The notes below the pieces were generated by a model. That model searched no databases. It was not told the DNA's origin and was given only the letters and a program-made list of their open reading frames with translations. DNA of 64,000 bases from Affinundibacterium fentianense (GTDB lineage: Bacteria > Pseudomonadota > Gammaproteobacteria > Burkholderiales > Burkholderiaceae_D). Location: positions 248,001 to 312,000 of the forward strand of contig NZ_JAGSPJ010000001.1 in NCBI RefSeq assembly GCF_018139545.1, given 5' to 3'. The position numbers and the translations under genes were made by a program. Below are positions 19,107-38,398 of the stretch, piece after piece (position 1 is the first letter of the stretch; each line of letters opens with the position of its first letter).

Positions 19107-19604
19107 ATGCAAAAAAGTCGCTCCATTTTGATATCTAGCTTCGCCCTATCCATCCTTGTTTCACAATCGGTGTTAGGTCAATACGTTTGGTTAAACGAGA
19201 AAGGCGTCAAGCAATATTCGGATTCACCTCCACCTAAAAGTGTTCCTCGAGAAAAAATCATCAAGAGTCCGGGTAATGCACCAAAAGCTACCGAAGTTGC
19301 TACAGTGTCTGAGAGGAATGAATCAAATAAACTTGAAAAGCCTGCAACGATCGCAAGCAAAAATGAAGATTTCAACAAACGTAAAGTAGCCCGCGAAGAG
19401 GCTGAGAAAAAGGCAGAATCAGATAAGCAACAAGCGGAAGATAAGGAAAAAAATTGCACCCGCGCAAAGGCTTACAAGCAATCTTTGGACGAGGGGCAAC
19501 TGCTGATGACGCGAGACAAAAACGGTGAACGAACCGTTTTAGACGAATCTCAGAGAACAAAGGAAATGGCAGACGTAAAACGCGTGCTGGCAGAGTGTAA
19601 ATAA
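19107..19604 (+). CDS. DUF4124 domain secreted protein
   Basis: A 165-residue protein with a signal peptide (cleavage probably after VLG) followed directly by the DUF4124 motif YVWLNEKGVKQYSDSPPPK. The rest is a Lys/Glu-rich helix (about residues 60-125) with one cysteine at NCTRAKAYK and one at the C-terminal AECK that could pair in the periplasm. DUF4124 proteins are common in betaproteobacteria and of unknown function. It converges with rnfH with only a 10-bp gap and no visible terminator. Confidence 0.8.
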   Translation: MQKSRSILISSFALSILVSQSVLGQYVWLNEKGVKQYSDSPPPKSVPREKIIKSPGNAPKATEVATVSERNESNKLEKPATIASKNEDFNKRKVAREEAEKKAESDKQQAEDKEKNCTRAKAYKQSLDEGQLLMTRDKNGERTVLDESQRTKEMADVKRVLAECK

Positions 19605-22390: not shown

Positions 22391-23770
22391 ATGATGCGAA
22401 ACTTTTTTCAACGTCTCGCTTGGTACAATAGTGGGCTGTTTTGGCGCACTTTTTTGCTGCTTGCCGCTTTGATTGTTGCCAGTATGTCTGCGTGGTTTAT
22501 TAGCATTAAGCTACTTGAACGCAAACCACGTGCGCAACAGCTATCTGGTCAAATCATTTCAGTTGTCACCATCACTAGCGCTGCTCTGACGCATTCTGCG
22601 TCAGATAAACGCCGAGAACTGCTCATTGACTTAGCACGCAACGAAGGTATTCGTATCTATCTTTTGGAGGAAAACGATCAAATTGAACCCGCTGACGAAA
22701 ATCCTATATTTGTTGAAATAAGAAAATTAGTACAACAAAAATTGGGAAGCCAAACGCGATTTGCTAAAAGTGTCAATGGCGAAATCGGCTTTTGGGTGAG
22801 TTTTAAAATCGACGAAGACCAATATTGGCTGCAATTAGAGCAAGACCGATTGCAAACGGAATCAGGGTGGCAATTTCTCGGTTGGGCAACCATCAGCATG
22901 GTTTTCGCTTTGATCGCAGCAATCTTCATTTCTCGTAGGATCAACCAGCCCCTTTCTAATTTAAGTGCCGCTGCAAGGCTACTTGCACAGGGCAAGCAGC
23001 CAAATCCTCTAAGTGAATCGGGCGCTCGGGAGATTCGTGAAACGAACACCAGTTTTAACCAGATGATGCAAGATTTGGCAAGAATTGAATCTGATCGCAC
23101 GGTGATTCTTGCTGGTATTTCACATGACCTACGTACCCCACTCACCCGCTTACAGCTAGAGCTGGAGATGGCGGCACTTGATCCAGAGACGCGCAACGCG
23201 ATGTATGCCGATCTCCAACAAATGGATAGCATCATCCAACAGTTTCTCGACTACGCTAAACCTTTACATGAATCAACATTTAATGGAATACCCATAAGCG
23301 AGTTGTTAGAGCGAATATGTGAAGAATTGAGGAATCACCCTGAAATTGAACTTAGTTCAGAAATCGAACCTGATTTATATCTAACAGGCCTAGAGATCGA
23401 ATTTCAGCGTTTAGTTAATAACTTAGTTCAAAACGCGCTACGCTACGGGCGCAGAGATTTCAATGAGAAGGTCGTGATTGAAATTTCCTGCATGGCCCAG
23501 AATTCAGGACCGCTCAGCGGAATCGTCCTTATATTTAGAGACCATGGACCTGGCGTTCCTGAGCACGATATTCCACGTCTATTGCGGCCATTTACACGCG
23601 GTGAAGTCGCGCGAAGCCAAGCAAACGGATCAGGTTTAGGACTGGCTATCGTTGACCGAATAATCAAGCGTCATGGAGGGCACTTGAAAATGCGGAACCA
23701 CGAACAAGGCGGCCTTGAAATTCGCATTGAATTTCAACATGGTAAAAAAATGCCACGACTCGCTATCTGA
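22391..23770 (+). CDS. envZ: EnvZ-type sensor histidine kinase
   Basis: A membrane kinase of about 459 residues. TM1 is around residues 13-38 (FLLLAALIVASMSAWFISI), a periplasmic loop of about 110 residues follows, then TM2 (TISMVFALIAAIFIS) and a HAMP region. The phosphorylated His is in ILAGISHDLRTPLTRLQLE, and the ATPase boxes are NNLVQNALRYG, FRDHGPGVPEHDIPRL and GSGLGLAIVDRI. The two adjacent ATGs at 22391/22394 follow the ompR stop. A longer frame starting inside ompR is rejected. Its stop codon lies in the loop of the terminator hairpin. Confidence 0.9.
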   Translation: MMRNFFQRLAWYNSGLFWRTFLLLAALIVASMSAWFISIKLLERKPRAQQLSGQIISVVTITSAALTHSASDKRRELLIDLARNEGIRIYLLEENDQIEPADENPIFVEIRKLVQQKLGSQTRFAKSVNGEIGFWVSFKIDEDQYWLQLEQDRLQTESGWQFLGWATISMVFALIAAIFISRRINQPLSNLSAAARLLAQGKQPNPLSESGAREIRETNTSFNQMMQDLARIESDRTVILAGISHDLRTPLTRLQLELEMAALDPETRNAMYADLQQMDSIIQQFLDYAKPLHESTFNGIPISELLERICEELRNHPEIELSSEIEPDLYLTGLEIEFQRLVNNLVQNALRYGRRDFNEKVVIEISCMAQNSGPLSGIVLIFRDHGPGVPEHDIPRLLRPFTRGEVARSQANGSGLGLAIVDRIIKRHGGHLKMRNHEQGGLEIRIEFQHGKKMPRLAI

Positions 23771-23788
23771 CGGTCGTGGCATTTTTCT
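23744..23788. terminator. bidirectional terminator between envZ and the giant coiled-coil gene
   Basis: A nine-base stem (TGCCACGAC at 23751-23759 with GTCGTGGCA at 23773-23781) is flanked by an A-run on the left and TTTTT on the right. The envZ TGA lies within the loop. It can end transcripts arriving from both converging genes. Confidence 0.85.
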
Positions 23789-23821: not shown

Positions 23822-26800
23822 CTAGTTACTGCTTCCCATTTTTGCTTGCAATTGATAACTCATTTTCAAATCTTCCATGCGTTCGACAAGTTGATTTTGC
23901 TGCGCAGTTTCTTTTGCTTTAGATTGAACAACATGTTTTTCTGAAATGGCAATATTACTTGCCTGTGCTTGTAACATGCCCCAGCTTGCCGCACCAACCA
24001 TTCCAATACTCATTAAGACACTAAACAAAACCGGCGAGCGCAAGCCACGGCGTTTCGCGATCGGAGTTATGTCATTCGTCTCAACTTCAACTGTCGCATC
24101 ATTTAAGATTTCTTTAGCGCGATCGCACCATTGTTGATGTTTGCCTTGCTCGAGTGTGAGTCGGTCTAATAATTCTTGCGTTAACGCTTCTGCCGCTTGC
24201 TTCTCTGCTTCGATGCGTTGTTGCATTTCTTCTGCTGATTGCTTCTGTTGCTGCACTTCATTGCGCAAAGTCATTTCCAATTGCTTTGCATGATCCAGTA
24301 ATGCTTGCTCCTCCAGGACCTTTGCCTGCGCTAACTCTCGACCGGCCTGCTCTTGCGCTAAGCGTTCTTGCATGAGTGATTTTGCCGCTTCTTCATGTTG
24401 AAGACGTTCCTTATTCACTTGACGTACATGCTGCGCTTCAAGAATTTGCTCCGCCAATAGTTTTGCAATACGTTCCTCCATTTGTACGTTATCACGATTC
24501 AATTGAACAATTTGTTCTTGCTCATCGCGATGCGAATCGAGTAACTCTGCTGCCAATTCATCTTGTTCTGCTTTGGCGTTTGCGGCCAAGGTATAAGCCA
24601 ACTCCGCTTCGAATTTGGTTTGCTCACGCTCACTCGCTTGACGCTCAGCTTCTAAGCGTTGTTGCGCCTGAACTAAAGCTTGATGTTCGAGTTCCGCGCG
24701 ACGTTTTGATTCTTCTAAGATCAACGACTCTGCTTCCAATTTCAATTCTACATCTCGCAATGCCGCTTGGTGACTTGCGTACAATGCTTCTTCGAGAGCA
24801 ATTTGTTCCTCCTGTTTACGTGCCAACTCGGTTTCCACTTCGAGACGATTCATTTGCGCTTGTTGCAGCTGCAAACTTTCATTCACATTCTCTTGCGCGG
24901 TGTTCGCTAGCGCTTCGTTTAACTGAATCTGTTGCTGTGCCAAAACCAGCGCCTCATTCTCTGCAGCGAGGCGATTTTGGATGGCGATTTTTGCTTCCTG
25001 TTCGGCTAAAACTCGGCGCTCACATTCCTCTAAATAGGCTTGCTCGGTTGCAATACGCTTATTCATTTCTTCCGCTAAAATCTGTTCTGCGACGACTTTT
25101 TGTTGAATTAAACGAAGCTCATCAGACTCTAGGCGTATTCTTTGTTCCTCAAGCGATTTCAGTTCTTCCGCTTGGCTTAAACGTGATTCAACAATGCTTA
25201 ATGCTGTTTTCTGTGCAGCAGAATGTTCACGAGAAGCAAGCAATAGCGCATTTTCAGCCTCAAATTTTTGCTGAATCAATTGATTCGCCAATTCTTCTTC
25301 CTCGGCGCGTTGTGATTCTGTTTCGGCTAACATGGCTTCGTAGCGCAGACGCTCATTGAGAGCGATGATTGCGCGCTGCTCATCTTCAATTTTTTGTTGA
25401 ATCTGCGCATTTAATTGCGCCTCTAATTGTGCTTGCTCTTCGGCAGCAGCAATCGATTCTGCTAGAGATTGATTTTTCAACTCTAATGCTGCAGTTGCAT
25501 GTTCACGTGCTTTACTTTCTTTCGCAGCTAAATTTAAGTAATTTTGTTCTTCCGCATTTAATTGCGCCAACTCGAAGTTCGCCTGTTCATCTTGCTTTTG
25601 CCGCAGGATCGCCAATGCCATTTTTTCTTCTTCTAATTTCTGCAAACGTTCCGCCTCGTCAATCGCATTTTTTTCCGCAATCTGAGAGAATTCCAATGCA
25701 CTTAAGGCAGCTTTCTCTTTCTCAATTCGTTCCTGATGCAAGCTATGTAGTTTTAGCTCTTCATCGACTCGTTGCTGCATCATATCGGCAAAAATTTTCT
25801 GCGCGTCTGCATTCGCTGCCAATGCTTCATGTAAGGCAAGCTCTTTGCTCAACGCAAACTGCGCATGTTCCTCTGCTTGCGCAGCGACTTCGAGATTAAT
25901 TGTTGCATTTTTCAACGCTACTTTTTCAATCTCTTGCTGTTCTTGGATCGTCTTGAGTGCCTCTTGCTCGATGATTACCTTTTCTTGCGTACTGGCGATT
26001 AGAGCTAAGTCGGCGGCGTGACGCTCTTGCGCAGTTTTTTCCAGCTCCGCAATTCGCTGCTTTTTTAGCATCACAGCCTGCCGTGCTTGATCCTGCAAAT
26101 CAGCGTAAGCGTGCGCTTTGGCATGCAATTCTTGTTCAAATTGTTGTTTCTCCGCTGCGAGTTGCTTCGCTTTTGCTTCTGCATTTGCGCGCTCTTCAGC
26201 CAATTTGGCATTTTCTTGCTCCAAGGCGAGTTTCGCCTCTGCTTCTGCCGCAGCGATCCGTTCTTGTTCAAGCCGTTGCTGCTTCAACTGCTGATCCAAT
26301 ATCGCAGCCTCTTTTTGTTGCAACTCCAAGCTAGTGATTTCCTCTAGCGTCTTTAGGGCATTTTGTTGCGCCAGCAATTTCGTTTTTTCAATATTAGCCA
26401 ATTCACATGCACGTTGCGCACGCAATTCGGTTGCTTCTTTGATCTGAGCTTCAAGTTGGACTTTTTCTTGGTTTTGCTTGATCAACTCTTGCTCGGCGCG
26501 GGCCCTATCCTCTATGGTTTGACGGATTTTTTGTTCGGATTCTAACCGCTCTTGTTGCAAACGAATTTCATTTTGTTCAGCTTCCACCTTCGCCGTTAAT
26601 TCCGCGATTAAAGTCTGTTCAAGATCCTTTTTTTGTTCGATGAGCGCTAATTTGCGAGCTTCTTCCTTGCTTCGTTGACGCATTAATTTTGTCAATTCAA
26701 TCGCTTCATTGGCTTTCGACTTCGCAACGCTTGCGGTTTGCCGTTGCAACTCTGCGTGTTCAGTCATCTTTTGAAAACGTAGTTGCTCCGCCTCTAAAAG

Positions 26801-28912
26801 TTGCTGACGAACTATTTTCGATTCTTTTTCTTTTTCTTGACGCGCAATGAGCATCTGAGCATGTTCTCGATCTGCTTTTGCTCTGGCCAAGACCTGCTCT
26901 GCCGCGGCGCGCTCGGCCTCTAATTTCTCTTGATTTGCCATTGCAGCATTGCGTTCAGCCTCGAGGCGAAGTTGTTCTGCTTTCGTCATCTCAACAACTT
27001 GACGTGCCTTTAATAATGCCAATGCAGCTGCTTTGCGCTGCAACTCTGCCTGTAACTGTGCTTGTTCGATTGCTTGACGTTCAGCAACGCTGCATTCTTC
27101 CAATGCTTTTTGTTGCTCCCACTCCAGTTTCTCTTTTTCCGCGGCCAATGCGATCGCTGCTTCTTCAGCCTGTAAGCGTGCGGCTGCAGCCTCTTCAGCG
27201 TCTTTCTCACTCGCCAGTCTCTCTTGCGATGCCAGCAGGAGCTTTTCCGCAGAGTCTGCACGACGCTGCTCAGTGAGTAATTTCTCTTGAATCAATTCTA
27301 GTGCTTTGGCTTCAGCTTCGACGCGATTTTGTTGCGCTTCCAACAGTGCTTGGGTATCTTGATTTTTTTGTACAGCCAATTGCGCCAACTGCTGACCGAG
27401 CTTGACGTTCTCTACAGTTTGTTCGAGCGCGATTTTTTCCGCAACAACTTTGGTCTCTTGCGCGATACGAATTGCTTGCTGCGCCTGTAATTGCATGCTC
27501 AAGACTTCGGCTTGCGTCGCTTCGGTTTTGGCAATCGTCTCAGCTTCTTCCTTTACTTTATTCTCCACCTCCACCTTCGCTTGAATCGCCTGCGCAGCAC
27601 GTTGTTCGGCTTCCGCACGCAATTTCTCAGCTTTCGCCAATTCAATCACGCTTTTGGCTTTAGAATTCGCTGCTAGATTCGCCTGCTTTAAATATTCTGT
27701 TTGCTTCGCGAGCGCATCCAAAGCTTGCTTTTCAGCGTCAGCTTTCTCTTTTGCGAGTTGCACAGCTTCGCGCTCTAACGCAATTTTTTCTTTCGCATAT
27801 TTTTGCGCACGCTCCTCTTCTTCTCGCCGCTGCTTGGCGATGGATGTGGCTTCCATTTCGGCAGTGCGCCGGCGTTTAGCTTCCTCGTTGGCCTGCTCTT
27901 CTGCCTCCAAGCGTGCACGCGCGTTTGCATCGGCATGTTGCTCCGTTTCGACGCGCATCAGTGCTTTCGATTGCAATTCTTTCTCTGCTTGAATTCGTGA
28001 TTCTGTCGCGTAGCGAATCTTTTCCTCGGCCTCGCTACGTGCTTGTGCCGCTTCTGCAGCTGTTTTTTCAGCCAATTCACGACGTGAAGCAGCTTGGAGA
28101 AGTGCCTCTTCTGCCTGTAGACGCAATTGAATTGCGTCAGCTGCCCGACGTTCTGATTCCACGCGCGCTTGAGCAATCGCTTCATATTCTTTTTCTAAAA
28201 TGGCGCGGCCACGTGCTTCTTCTCGCGCCCGAATTTCCAATGGTGTTCGACTTAAGGAAACTTCTAGGGCAATCGCTTCGGCTTGATCACGCTCGCGATT
28301 AATTTGCTGAGATTCAGTGCGAATTTTTGCCAACCGTTCCGCATTCAAACGCGCTTCACGCTCTTGCCGTTCACGTTCTCTCGCCTGTTCTGCGATTTTT
28401 GCGTCGACACGCGCACGCTCTATCGCCTCTTGTTTTGCCGCATAGGAGGCCGCAGCACGTTCTGCGGCCCATTGTTTTGCATTTTCAGTTTCAATGGCTA
28501 GTTGATCAGCCTCAACTTTTGCTTTGAAATTCAATTGGGTGTCAATTTTGATCTGTTCAAGCACCATTTTCTTCGCTTCTTGCTGGTTGCGAGCACGTAA
28601 TCCTGCTTGAAACTTTGCTTCTTCCTGAAGCATTGGATCTATTTCGATTGTTTCTTCTTGAAGTATTGTTGCGGCTTCGGGTGAATTCAAAGCCGTTGAT
28701 TCTTGATGACTGAGCGTTTGTTGACTCACCTCGGCACGTGCTTCGGCTTCTGCTTCTACTCTCGCAATCGCCGCACGTATTCCCTGAACATCAATGCGAG
28801 CGTGATGCGCAAAGTTTTCGTCATTTACGATATCTCCACCATCCATTTGATGGTCAGCAAGGCCCGCAGGCCCCATTGAGAGTCGGTTCAGAATCATTTG
28901 ATTGTCATTCAT
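23822..28912 (-). CDS. giant coiled-coil protein with C-terminal membrane anchor
   Basis: A 1,696-residue protein of no family I recognise. Residues 1 to about 110 are mixed sequence. About 110 to 1600 are an almost unbroken Ala/Glu/Gln/Arg-rich coiled coil with a 14-residue repeat (for example QARVESERRAADAI, QLRLQAEEALLQAA, SRRELAEKTAAEAA in succession), nearly free of Pro, Gly and aromatic residues. About 1628-1651 is one hydrophobic span (VLFSVLMSIGMVGAASWGML) preceded by AKRRGLRS, so the long N-terminal rod should be cytoplasmic and the last 45 residues periplasmic. A strong GAGGTG ribosome-binding site lies five bases before the ATG. The uninterrupted frame of more than 5 kb, despite its repetitiveness, argues for selection. 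A scaffold or cytoskeletal role is only an inference. Confidence 0.85.
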   Translation of the reverse strand: MNDNQMILNRLSMGPAGLADHQMDGGDIVNDENFAHHARIDVQGIRAAIARVEAEAEARAEVSQQTLSHQESTALNSPEAATILQEETIEIDPMLQEEAKFQAGLRARNQQEAKKMVLEQIKIDTQLNFKAKVEADQLAIETENAKQWAAERAAASYAAKQEAIERARVDAKIAEQARERERQEREARLNAERLAKIRTESQQINRERDQAEAIALEVSLSRTPLEIRAREEARGRAILEKEYEAIAQARVESERRAADAIQLRLQAEEALLQAASRRELAEKTAAEAAQARSEAEEKIRYATESRIQAEKELQSKALMRVETEQHADANARARLEAEEQANEEAKRRRTAEMEATSIAKQRREEEERAQKYAKEKIALEREAVQLAKEKADAEKQALDALAKQTEYLKQANLAANSKAKSVIELAKAEKLRAEAEQRAAQAIQAKVEVENKVKEEAETIAKTEATQAEVLSMQLQAQQAIRIAQETKVVAEKIALEQTVENVKLGQQLAQLAVQKNQDTQALLEAQQNRVEAEAKALELIQEKLLTEQRRADSAEKLLLASQERLASEKDAEEAAAARLQAEEAAIALAAEKEKLEWEQQKALEECSVAERQAIEQAQLQAELQRKAAALALLKARQVVEMTKAEQLRLEAERNAAMANQEKLEAERAAAEQVLARAKADREHAQMLIARQEKEKESKIVRQQLLEAEQLRFQKMTEHAELQRQTASVAKSKANEAIELTKLMRQRSKEEARKLALIEQKKDLEQTLIAELTAKVEAEQNEIRLQQERLESEQKIRQTIEDRARAEQELIKQNQEKVQLEAQIKEATELRAQRACELANIEKTKLLAQQNALKTLEEITSLELQQKEAAILDQQLKQQRLEQERIAAAEAEAKLALEQENAKLAEERANAEAKAKQLAAEKQQFEQELHAKAHAYADLQDQARQAVMLKKQRIAELEKTAQERHAADLALIASTQEKVIIEQEALKTIQEQQEIEKVALKNATINLEVAAQAEEHAQFALSKELALHEALAANADAQKIFADMMQQRVDEELKLHSLHQERIEKEKAALSALEFSQIAEKNAIDEAERLQKLEEEKMALAILRQKQDEQANFELAQLNAEEQNYLNLAAKESKAREHATAALELKNQSLAESIAAAEEQAQLEAQLNAQIQQKIEDEQRAIIALNERLRYEAMLAETESQRAEEEELANQLIQQKFEAENALLLASREHSAAQKTALSIVESRLSQAEELKSLEEQRIRLESDELRLIQQKVVAEQILAEEMNKRIATEQAYLEECERRVLAEQEAKIAIQNRLAAENEALVLAQQQIQLNEALANTAQENVNESLQLQQAQMNRLEVETELARKQEEQIALEEALYASHQAALRDVELKLEAESLILEESKRRAELEHQALVQAQQRLEAERQASEREQTKFEAELAYTLAANAKAEQDELAAELLDSHRDEQEQIVQLNRDNVQMEERIAKLLAEQILEAQHVRQVNKERLQHEEAAKSLMQERLAQEQAGRELAQAKVLEEQALLDHAKQLEMTLRNEVQQQKQSAEEMQQRIEAEKQAAEALTQELLDRLTLEQGKHQQWCDRAKEILNDATVEVETNDITPIAKRRGLRSPVLFSVLMSIGMVGAASWGMLQAQASNIAISEKHVVQSKAKETAQQNQLVERMEDLKMSYQLQAKMGSSN

Positions 28913-29203
28913 TGCACACCTCGTGAATTAGTCGGTTCAGAGAGCTCGTTTCATCTTAACTCTTAGGTGAGACGGCTTTTACCTGACTAGCATTATCGAC
29001 ATAATTGCGTAAATCGATTCTTCAATAAGAATAGGTATTTGCCCGTATTTCGAGGTTTGAATTTAACTTGAATGCTAAATGTGGTGTGCAGGAATGAGCA
29101 TATGCATAGAGAATCTAATTGATTGACTTTATCGGCAACTAATCAAAGGTAAAATCCTCATATTACCGATACAAAGAGTCTATCCATTGAACCAATATCA
29201 CAA
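28913..29203. other. divergent intergenic region, 291 bp
   Basis: This AT-rich gap must hold the promoters of the giant coiled-coil gene (leftward) and the aminotransferase gene (rightward). Apart from the GAGGTG ribosome-binding site at its left edge I see no full-match -35/-10 pair, RNA gene or convincing small gene in it. Confidence 0.5.
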
Positions 29204-38088: not shown

Positions 38089-38097
38089 ATTGCTCAC

Positions 38098-38398
38098 CTT
38101 TCTTCGCGCTTCGCGAGATTAGCGGGTTAATCTAACCTTCCGCGACACGGCCTGACCGGTTAGCGGATTGCACATCAAGTTGTGGGGAAGGACTCATTCG
38201 AAATTCTATTTTCAACCGGAGATTTGACACGGCACTTCAGGAAATACCACTTCAAACAAAAGGAAGAATCTTGATTTTCAACATCAAACGCGAGAATAAC
38301 ATATTTCGCCATAAAAAAAGCGAGCATTTTCTACTCGCTTTTATAAAATATATTTAATCTCTTAAATAATAATTATTATTTAATCTAATTAATTTTGC
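38098..38398. other. gltA-odhA intergenic region, 301 bp
   Basis: On the minus strand this holds the gltA terminator (right end) and the presumed odhA promoter and leader. I see no RNA gene or small gene in it and no copy of the 18-bp palindrome found near the GntR gene. Confidence 0.5.
38310..38346 (-). terminator. rho-independent terminator after gltA
   Basis: On the minus strand AAAAGCGAG (38342-38334), a nine-base loop and CTCGCTTTT (38324-38316) form a hairpin followed by a longer T-run. It lies about 55 bp after the gltA stop and separates gltA from odhA. Confidence 0.8.

Follow-up and report, generated by a model that had tools for sequence, protein, structure and literature searches.

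A conserved family of membrane-anchored coiled-coil rod proteins in Oxalobacteraceae, with a possible role in organizing peptidoglycan trimming

The rod protein of the freshwater bacterium Affinundibacterium fentianense, a predicted membrane-anchored coiled coil, belongs to what sequence comparison indicates is a real, conserved, and undescribed Oxalobacteraceae family, which occurs throughout Undibacterium and is under purifying selection. Its gene lies in a window of 64,000 nucleotides, the whole stretch of DNA that was analyzed. The protein is tentatively read as a single-pass inner-membrane scaffold that would organize periplasmic peptidoglycan trimming through its tail and thereby set cell shape. 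This wall-editing role, to which we give somewhat less than even credence, is the best supported of several readings, and we infer it from gene neighborhood, co-occurrence, and topology. The computed basis consists of a heptad rod, an indel-free core, growth mostly by heptads, topology, a tail motif, and the co-occurrence and neighborhood of a TPR-NTF2 gene and an enzyme gene. The dN/dS values and the PDB matches of the enzyme lend the reading further support.

The rod gene begins with ATG and has zero internal stops over its 1,696 codons, which bears out the unbroken frame of more than 5 kb reported in the initial annotation. A Shine-Dalgarno-like GAGGTG directly before the ATG likewise agrees with the claim that the gene has its own ribosome-binding site. 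A promoter scan of the minus strand upstream of the gene found no sigma-70-like site. The terminator said to be shared with envZ stands in part: a hairpin flanked by T-runs folds at -26.2 kcal/mol (z -6.7), whereas a consensus scan that allowed loops of 3-8 bases listed no terminator at this boundary.

The source genome comprises 4.23 Mb in 65 contigs. On one side, the rod gene is flanked by convergent envZ-ompR and smpB, and on the other by an aminotransferase gene and a ZapE-like gene. Neighbor names were judged from the sequences, and only the aminotransferase (PF00155) and a DUF4124 protein were named by searches. The latter is a small protein (PF13511) encoded at 19107-19604 of the window, adjoining an IMPDH-like gene. 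At gathering score, the window has a single Rfam match, a SucA RNA motif (RF01070) at 38091-38173, upstream of a sucA-like gene. A second rod copy in the source genome was considered and rejected; the candidate, a 47-bp match on contig C52, falls at the start of a TolC-like gene and was taken as chance.

Table 1. Features of the rod gene and its product, with positions in the window.
Feature	Position	Strand	Basis
Whole CDS, membrane-anchored coiled-coil protein of 1,696 aa	23822..28912	-	Reading frame and orthologues
GAGGTG, Shine-Dalgarno-like stretch	28917..28922	-	Seen directly in sequence, just 5' of ATG
Residues 1-38, N-terminal stretch, variable after a conserved start	28799..28912	-	Alignment and model
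Residues 39-56, conserved cap motif RIDVxGIRxAIARVEAEA	28745..28798	-	Alignments and predicted helix
Residues 93-1605, helical rod	24098..28636	-	Heptad periodicity; helix at both modeled ends
Residues 240-1460, 1,221 columns without indel in 18 Undibacterium proteins	24533..28195	-	Alignment and register check
Residues 573-984, most distinct traces of degenerate 98-residue modules	25961..27196	-	L081-module profile without composition correction; suggestive only
Residues 1595-1603, juxtamembrane W1595 to L1603	24104..24130	-	Conservation across genera
Residues 1620-1622, KRR before span	24047..24055	-	Sequence; family counts
Residues 1628-1651, transmembrane span	23960..24031	-	Hydropathy 1.70 at 1628; helix in model
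Residues 1652-1696, 45-residue tail	23825..23959	-	Periplasmic by positive-inside rule
Residues 1682-1688, LKMSYQL, conserved tail motif	23849..23869	-	Pattern counts in 68 tails
Hairpin flanked by T-runs, extending into the 3' end of convergent envZ	23744..23788	-	Folding energy

The N-terminal stretch is modeled by AlphaFold2 as a helix at residues 3-11 with low confidence at 14-37. It is followed by the cap, in which R39, I40, D41, G44, I45, A48, I49, A50, and E53 are invariant in 19 Undibacterium rows. A core of I, A, I, R, and E is invariant in 19 rows drawn across genera. The cap is predicted as a helix (residues 42-75) that gives way to a low-confidence linker, and the rod just behind it contains the most conserved stretch of the protein, residues 151-400. 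AlphaFold2 models cover residues 1-300 and 1558-1696 only. They contain a single helix from 93 to 299 at the front and, at the back, a helix at 1559-1605, a loop, and a helix at 1628-1660.

Ala, Glu, Gln, Arg, Lys, and Leu make up 76.0% of residues 111-1600; the bias is strong, as first described, though the wording "almost only" overstated it a little. Between residues 105 and 1600, proline occurs once (224) and glycine four times (235, 506, 1524, and 1590). Hydrophobic residues recur with periods of 3.50 and 7.00 residues. All 21 windows along the rod have a heptad phase from -34 to -113 degrees (power 0.9-10.6), and a phase held within ~80 degrees is more than composition alone would yield. 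The rise of a helix is 0.1485 nm per residue. At this value the rod would measure ~225 nm if continuous, in line with the earlier estimate of more than 200 nm.

The central part of the rod is free of indels in Undibacterium. At pairwise identities of 31-99%, zero indels were found in the 1,221 core columns across 153 pairs. Indels in the 18 proteins fall in the N-terminal linker, in residues 1470-1555, and in the tail, and one sequence has others near 137-205. In a register check of 8,721 windows, 196 scored better after a shift of at most 18 residues. Seven of the 12 shift examples printed involve L048, the most distant sequence, for which some shifts may be real. Shifts concealed by the alignment are not widespread in the core.

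Control proteins encoded at the same loci as the rod, which differ from it in identity, gave 0.37 indels per 1,000 aligned residues for EnvZ (14 rows, mean identity 0.62), 2.13 for the aminotransferase (13 rows, 0.68), and 21.2 for a small neighbor (4 rows, 0.42). SMC gave 0.15 (12 rows, mean 0.84), whereas the full-length rod, ends included, gave 4.77 in those 12 genomes. SMC was set aside as a control since, at 73-99% identity, it is too conserved for a fair comparison. Because identity is unmatched and resistance to indels is expected of coiled coils, the core is best described as a sign of constraint rather than as a unique property.

Across genera, rod length changes mostly by whole heptads. 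Of 39 rods chosen across genera, 35 were aligned, and the four missed by the cap pattern were dropped; the first 100 and last 170 positions were left out of the count. Among 1,452 pairwise indels, which share ancestry and are thus non-independent, 835 are multiples of seven and 339 are of size 7n+4, against ~207 per class for an even spread. The commonest sizes are 77 and 4, and the series 21, 119, 217, 315, and 413 advances in steps of 98. The distance from cap to span is 1,119-1,130 residues in the Herminiimonas group (7 rods) and 1,557-1,775 in Undibacterium (19 rods). It ranges from 1,001 to 1,597 in the Noviherbaspirillum group, with 5/10 rods at 1,296-1,300.

Modules of 98 residues are plain in Noviherbaspirillum-group rods, one of which is an open array, and leave only traces in Undibacterium. 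Self-comparison at lag 98, scored against shuffles of 14-residue blocks, gave 47% identity and z 19.1 for L081, followed by L098 (z 10.7), L145 (7.2), and L131 (5.7). The Undibacterium values were 6.0 for L040, 3.2 for L035, 3.0 for the window rod, and 2.2 for L048; in the window rod, lag 42 (z 5.8) is stronger than lag 98. Eight modules align in L081, and two of them are 89-90% identical to an adjoining third. The axial stagger of myosin is also 98 residues. A myosin-like stagger was rejected, as charge interaction plotted against stagger in 7 rods had no common peak and 98 was not special.

A C-terminal span with hydropathy of at least 1.4 is present in 68/68 distinct long members of the family and in 0/24 short ones, the highest of which reaches 1.35. 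In the window rod the hydropathy peak begins at residue 1628 and 45 residues follow 1651, matching the single span and tail of the initial annotation. K1620, R1621, and R1622 precede the span, and Lys and Arg in the 15 residues before the span outnumber those after it in 67/68 long members, with one tie. These charges support the predicted topology of a cytoplasmic N-terminus, one span, and a periplasmic C-terminus, as had been proposed from the KRR, and led to the rejection of a periplasmic rod. In the juxtamembrane stretch, W1595 is invariant (22/22) and L1603 is conserved in at least 90% of the same 22 rows across genera.

The tail is of low confidence and without strand in the AlphaFold2 model of residues 1558-1696. 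A strict pattern, [LMF]x[MLF][ST][YF]x[LI], occurs in 56/68 tails, with a mean of 0.0 (maximum 1) in shuffled tails. A loose pattern near LxMSYxL occurs in 67/68, with a shuffled mean of 2.8 (maximum 8). Both patterns were composed after the alignments had been seen, and the tails share ancestry.

The claim that the protein matches no known family holds for Pfam, for NCBIfam (none at E 0.1), and for PDB sequences (0 phmmer matches to PDB chains at 1e-6). Other rod members gave one Pfam match far below the cut-off, PH_29 in L085 (E 0.091), and a PDB search with the cap profile returned only E 0.29-0.96, taken as chance. In the open-access literature searched, no description of the family or its morphology was recognized.

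Absent or broken orthologues in close relatives had been named as a sign of decay. Instead, an N-terminal protein query matched 22/25 Undibacterium genomes, the source genome included, and the cap profile matched 19/19 of those listed. The three genomes without an N-terminal match have completeness of 65, 89, and 99% and consist of 460-880 contigs. In the wider family, the cap profile matched 119/255 genomes at one place each. By open frame these are 65 long (at least 900 aa), 46 short (505-842 aa), and 8 fragments, which were excluded. The figure of 119 is a lower bound, as another profile finds rods in G051 and G058, which the cap profile leaves unmatched.

A scan of named genomes gave 79 loci, mostly from Undibacterium, Herminiimonas, Noviherbaspirillum, Massilia, Duganella, and other Oxalobacteraceae or Burkholderiales. 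Span-less relatives of ~750-820 aa with a similar cap are found in Massilia and Duganella. The anatomy table holds 120 loci, of which one has no rod frame, seven are cut by a contig end, and one (L034) is broken. Removal of 19 copies, identical throughout or over the last 200 residues, left 92 members (68 long and 24 short). The L034 rod, on contig C1 of G014, ends early at 1,476 aa. The genes for SMC and the YkuD-NTF2 enzyme are likewise split in this genome of one contig, a pattern that points to assembly base errors and not to genuine loss.

Six pairs of long-type members gave dN/dS values of 0.033, 0.042, 0.048, 0.054, 0.073, and 0.096, and another pair gave no value because synonymous sites were saturated. 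One pair of short members gave 0.227.

An order-wide search at 1e-6 matched 28/399 genomes, including 9 from the same family. Among ten order-wide loci, L244 and L252 combine a cap with a span-like C-terminus (hydropathy 1.33 and 1.39, below the 1.4 line), L253 has a span (2.02) with no clear cap, L247 has no rod frame, and L245, L246, and L250 end at a contig edge. The coiled-coil proteins of L245, L246, and L248-L251, from other Burkholderiales families, match the cap profile and have no clear span in their visible part. A wider superfamily of cap-bearing coiled-coil proteins may exist.

The commonest neighbor of the rod gene outside Undibacterium encodes a TPR protein with a Cds6_C (NTF2-like) domain. 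This gene lies directly behind the rod on the same strand at 7/20 loci, and at 6 of those 7 a YkuD plus Cds6_C enzyme gene then follows. By profile, the enzyme gene is present in 27/27 anatomy-table rows that have the TPR gene, some rows being copies of one genome. The TPR gene is directly behind the rod in 29/65 long-rod genomes, all 29 among the 46 outside Undibacterium. It is distant on the same contig in 14 others and on another contig in 20, and 2 have no match. In Undibacterium the two never adjoin (0/19), and 12 genomes with both on one contig have them 68-339 kb apart. The distance in the source genome is ~218 kb, where the TPR gene lies among cyclophilin, accA-like, and tilS-like genes. 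At several loci in other genera that lack an adjacent rod, the TPR gene has neighbors of similar sizes, so the place away from the rod is probably the older one.

At E 1e-40, the TPR profile matches 63/65 long-rod genomes versus 9/46 genomes with short, span-less rods. It also matches 6/8 fragment genomes and 55/136 family genomes with no rod match; outside the long-rod set, the cap and TPR surveys were matched by hand. The enzyme gene was surveyed in Undibacterium only (41/43). In a 52-row enzyme tree, three changes suffice for the 24 rows labeled adjacent, compared with a shuffled mean of 17.5. L206 carries the non-adjacent label on this tree, yet it has a truncated rod-like frame at the position expected for the rod. 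Adjacency probably arose once and was inherited in several genera. Short-rod genomes come mostly from a few genera, and their contrast with long-rod genomes may reflect a single joint loss.

Both partner proteins begin with a hydrophobic stretch that resembles a signal peptide by eye. In the enzyme, a YkuD catalytic domain precedes the NTF2 domain. The source-genome enzyme matches PDB entry 7O21 (Bd1075) best (7.4e-34), then Csd6 and Pgp2, with 4XZZ at 3.1e-17. Six aligned enzymes read SSDGCVVL, with Val two residues after the Cys, and Bd1075 has V158 where most LD-transpeptidases have Arg, as reported (PMC8938487). The partner enzyme resembles LD-carboxypeptidases in sequence and is a candidate enzyme of that kind. 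Enzymes are ~585-615 aa long in part of Undibacterium, including the source genome (L188:9348-11117), versus ~420-457 aa elsewhere. A further gene, L254:1788-3719 (minus strand, source-genome contig C52), matches the NTF2 part of the enzyme profile at its C-terminal end. We take its product to be TolC-like, of the outer-membrane-channel type with an NTF2-like tail.

Genes for hybrid histidine kinases or response regulators flank the rod on its opposite side at 6/20 loci, in two clusters of three (L079, L080, and L081; L083, L087, and L092). Pfam confirms one member of each cluster (L083:697-2802 and L080:633-2579). These recurring genes may hint at regulation or signaling. A single conserved cytoplasmic partner gene was sought in the 20 loci of other genera and none emerged.

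The initial annotation's idea of a membrane-anchored cytoplasmic scaffold is supported by the predicted topology, the steady heptad phase, and the core without indels. The polarity marker or filament that it also raised is unproven, and the gene neighborhood in relatives points to peptidoglycan trimming instead. In the proposed mechanism, the N-terminus and the ~225-nm coiled-coil rod would lie in the cytoplasm, and the C-terminus would cross the inner membrane to expose the short LxMSYxL tail in the periplasm. Rods would pair and possibly bundle into an extended cytoplasmic structure. The tails would gather the NTF2-tagged L,D-carboxypeptidase-like enzyme together with the TPR-NTF2 protein, both of which would be exported. 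Peptidoglycan peptides could then be trimmed at chosen places, and the shape of the cell set.

Several observations weigh against this reading. The TPR gene never adjoins the rod in Undibacterium, the few changes on the enzyme tree could represent one inherited event, and the contrast with span-less rods is concentrated in few genera. The TPR gene is found in many rod-less genomes of the family, the enzyme counts come from Undibacterium alone, and the reading makes no use of the recurrent kinases. The tail motif is of low confidence in the model. The NTF2 domain of Pgp2 is reported to bind peptidoglycan and to be required for a helical shape (PMC8038945), so an NTF2 domain need not bind the tail. 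The literature searched contained no morphology data tied to the rod gene.

A cytoplasmic filament of the intermediate-filament type, anchored by its span, could instead stiffen or bend the cell alone, with the peptidoglycan pair incidental. The long heptad rod and its steady phase suit such a filament, as do the span-less relatives with a similar cap and the requirement for the coiled coil crescentin in the Caulobacter crescent, as reported (PMC10873595). This alternative is unlikely but serious; the motif in 67/68 tails suggests a periplasmic binding partner, and the span-bearing type tracks the TPR gene. A polar, nucleoid, or signaling organizer, or a golgin- or polar-hub-like capture tether, would keep cargo in the cytoplasm at a fixed distance from the membrane. 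Nine invariant cap residues, the strong conservation of residues 151-400, the kinases and regulators of the two clusters, and the adjoining envZ in the window all fit a cytoplasmic task of this kind. It is nevertheless rated as unlikely, slightly more so than the filament, given that the TPR gene (7) and the enzyme (6) are the commonest neighbors in the 20 loci, that kinase genes are widespread, and that the two clusters are unlike each other.

The nature of the rod itself bears on two further alternatives. A stable single alpha-helix would suit a sequence rich in E, K, R, and A, and single helices of 98 residues have been obtained by design. Such a helix is very improbable here, as hydrophobic residues follow a 3.5/7 period with steady phase, indels favor multiples of seven and 7n+4, and K, R, D, and E make up only ~35% of the rod. 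A decaying repeat expansion with no function would account for the biased composition and internal repeats, but it is close to refuted by dN/dS of 0.033-0.096, the indel-free core, and genus-wide presence. A bolder and improbable proposal is a molecular ruler. A membrane-rooted rod would fix the distance or spacing between the cytoplasmic cap and periplasmic sites at which the NTF2-tagged carboxypeptidase is docked via the tail motif. The rod would have grown by tandem duplication of a 14-heptad, ~14.6-nm module, and its length would later have been frozen in some lineages.

The ruler, if true, would explain physically how editing is directed to one side of the cell wall. If the wall-editing scaffold gathers a Bd1075-type enzyme, environmental bacteria offer a way to test the matter. 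The family also offers a good natural example of how coiled coils evolve in length, combining mostly whole-heptad changes, 98-residue steps, and a long indel-free core. The core, these length steps, the family-wide span and tail motif, and the link to the TPR-NTF2 and enzyme genes are new.

Some known systems resemble the rod protein in layout. Golgins are eukaryotic tail-anchored tethers in which a long cytosolic coiled coil ends in one C-terminal membrane span; the likeness is one of layout only and implies no homology. FimV/HubP polar hubs have a long cytoplasmic part, one span, and a periplasmic N-terminal part with a LysM domain. The rod protein has the opposite topology and lacks LysM (0 Pfam families). 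The same Pfam search found no ATPase heads of the SMC/Rad50 type, and SMC is a separate gene in the source genome.

Bd1075, Csd6, and Pgp2 are related to the partner enzyme only, through its YkuD and NTF2 domains, and not to the rod. Bd1075 (7O21) is reported to be an LD-carboxypeptidase that generates curvature in Bdellovibrio and depends on its NTF2 domain for placement at the convex face (PMC8938487). The source-genome enzyme differs from these proteins in its 589 aa frame with two Cds6_C stretches, and its activity is predicted.

In Helicobacter pylori, the transmembrane protein Csd5 is reported to bind the bactofilin CcmA through its cytoplasmic N-terminal region, joining cytoskeleton to wall (PMC9507126). 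The rod protein shares this predicted layout of a cytoplasmic N-terminus, one span, and a periplasmic C-terminus. Csd5 is reported to bind peptidoglycan by an SH3 domain, whereas the rod protein has a 45-residue tail with a short motif and carries its rod in the same chain. Pfam found no periplasmic SH3 domain in it, and the low-confidence tail model has no strand.

Crescentin resembles the rod in being a long cytoplasmic heptad coiled coil with a possible role in curvature. No sequence relation was detected (0 phmmer hits at 1e-6 among PDB chains, which include crescentin entries). Crescentin constructs are reported to number to residue 457, compared with ~1,500 rod residues and a C-terminal span. 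Crescentin needs its first 27 residues for membrane attachment, as reported (PMC10873595), whereas the rod family is predicted to attach at the opposite end, by a C-terminal span present in 68/68 long members.
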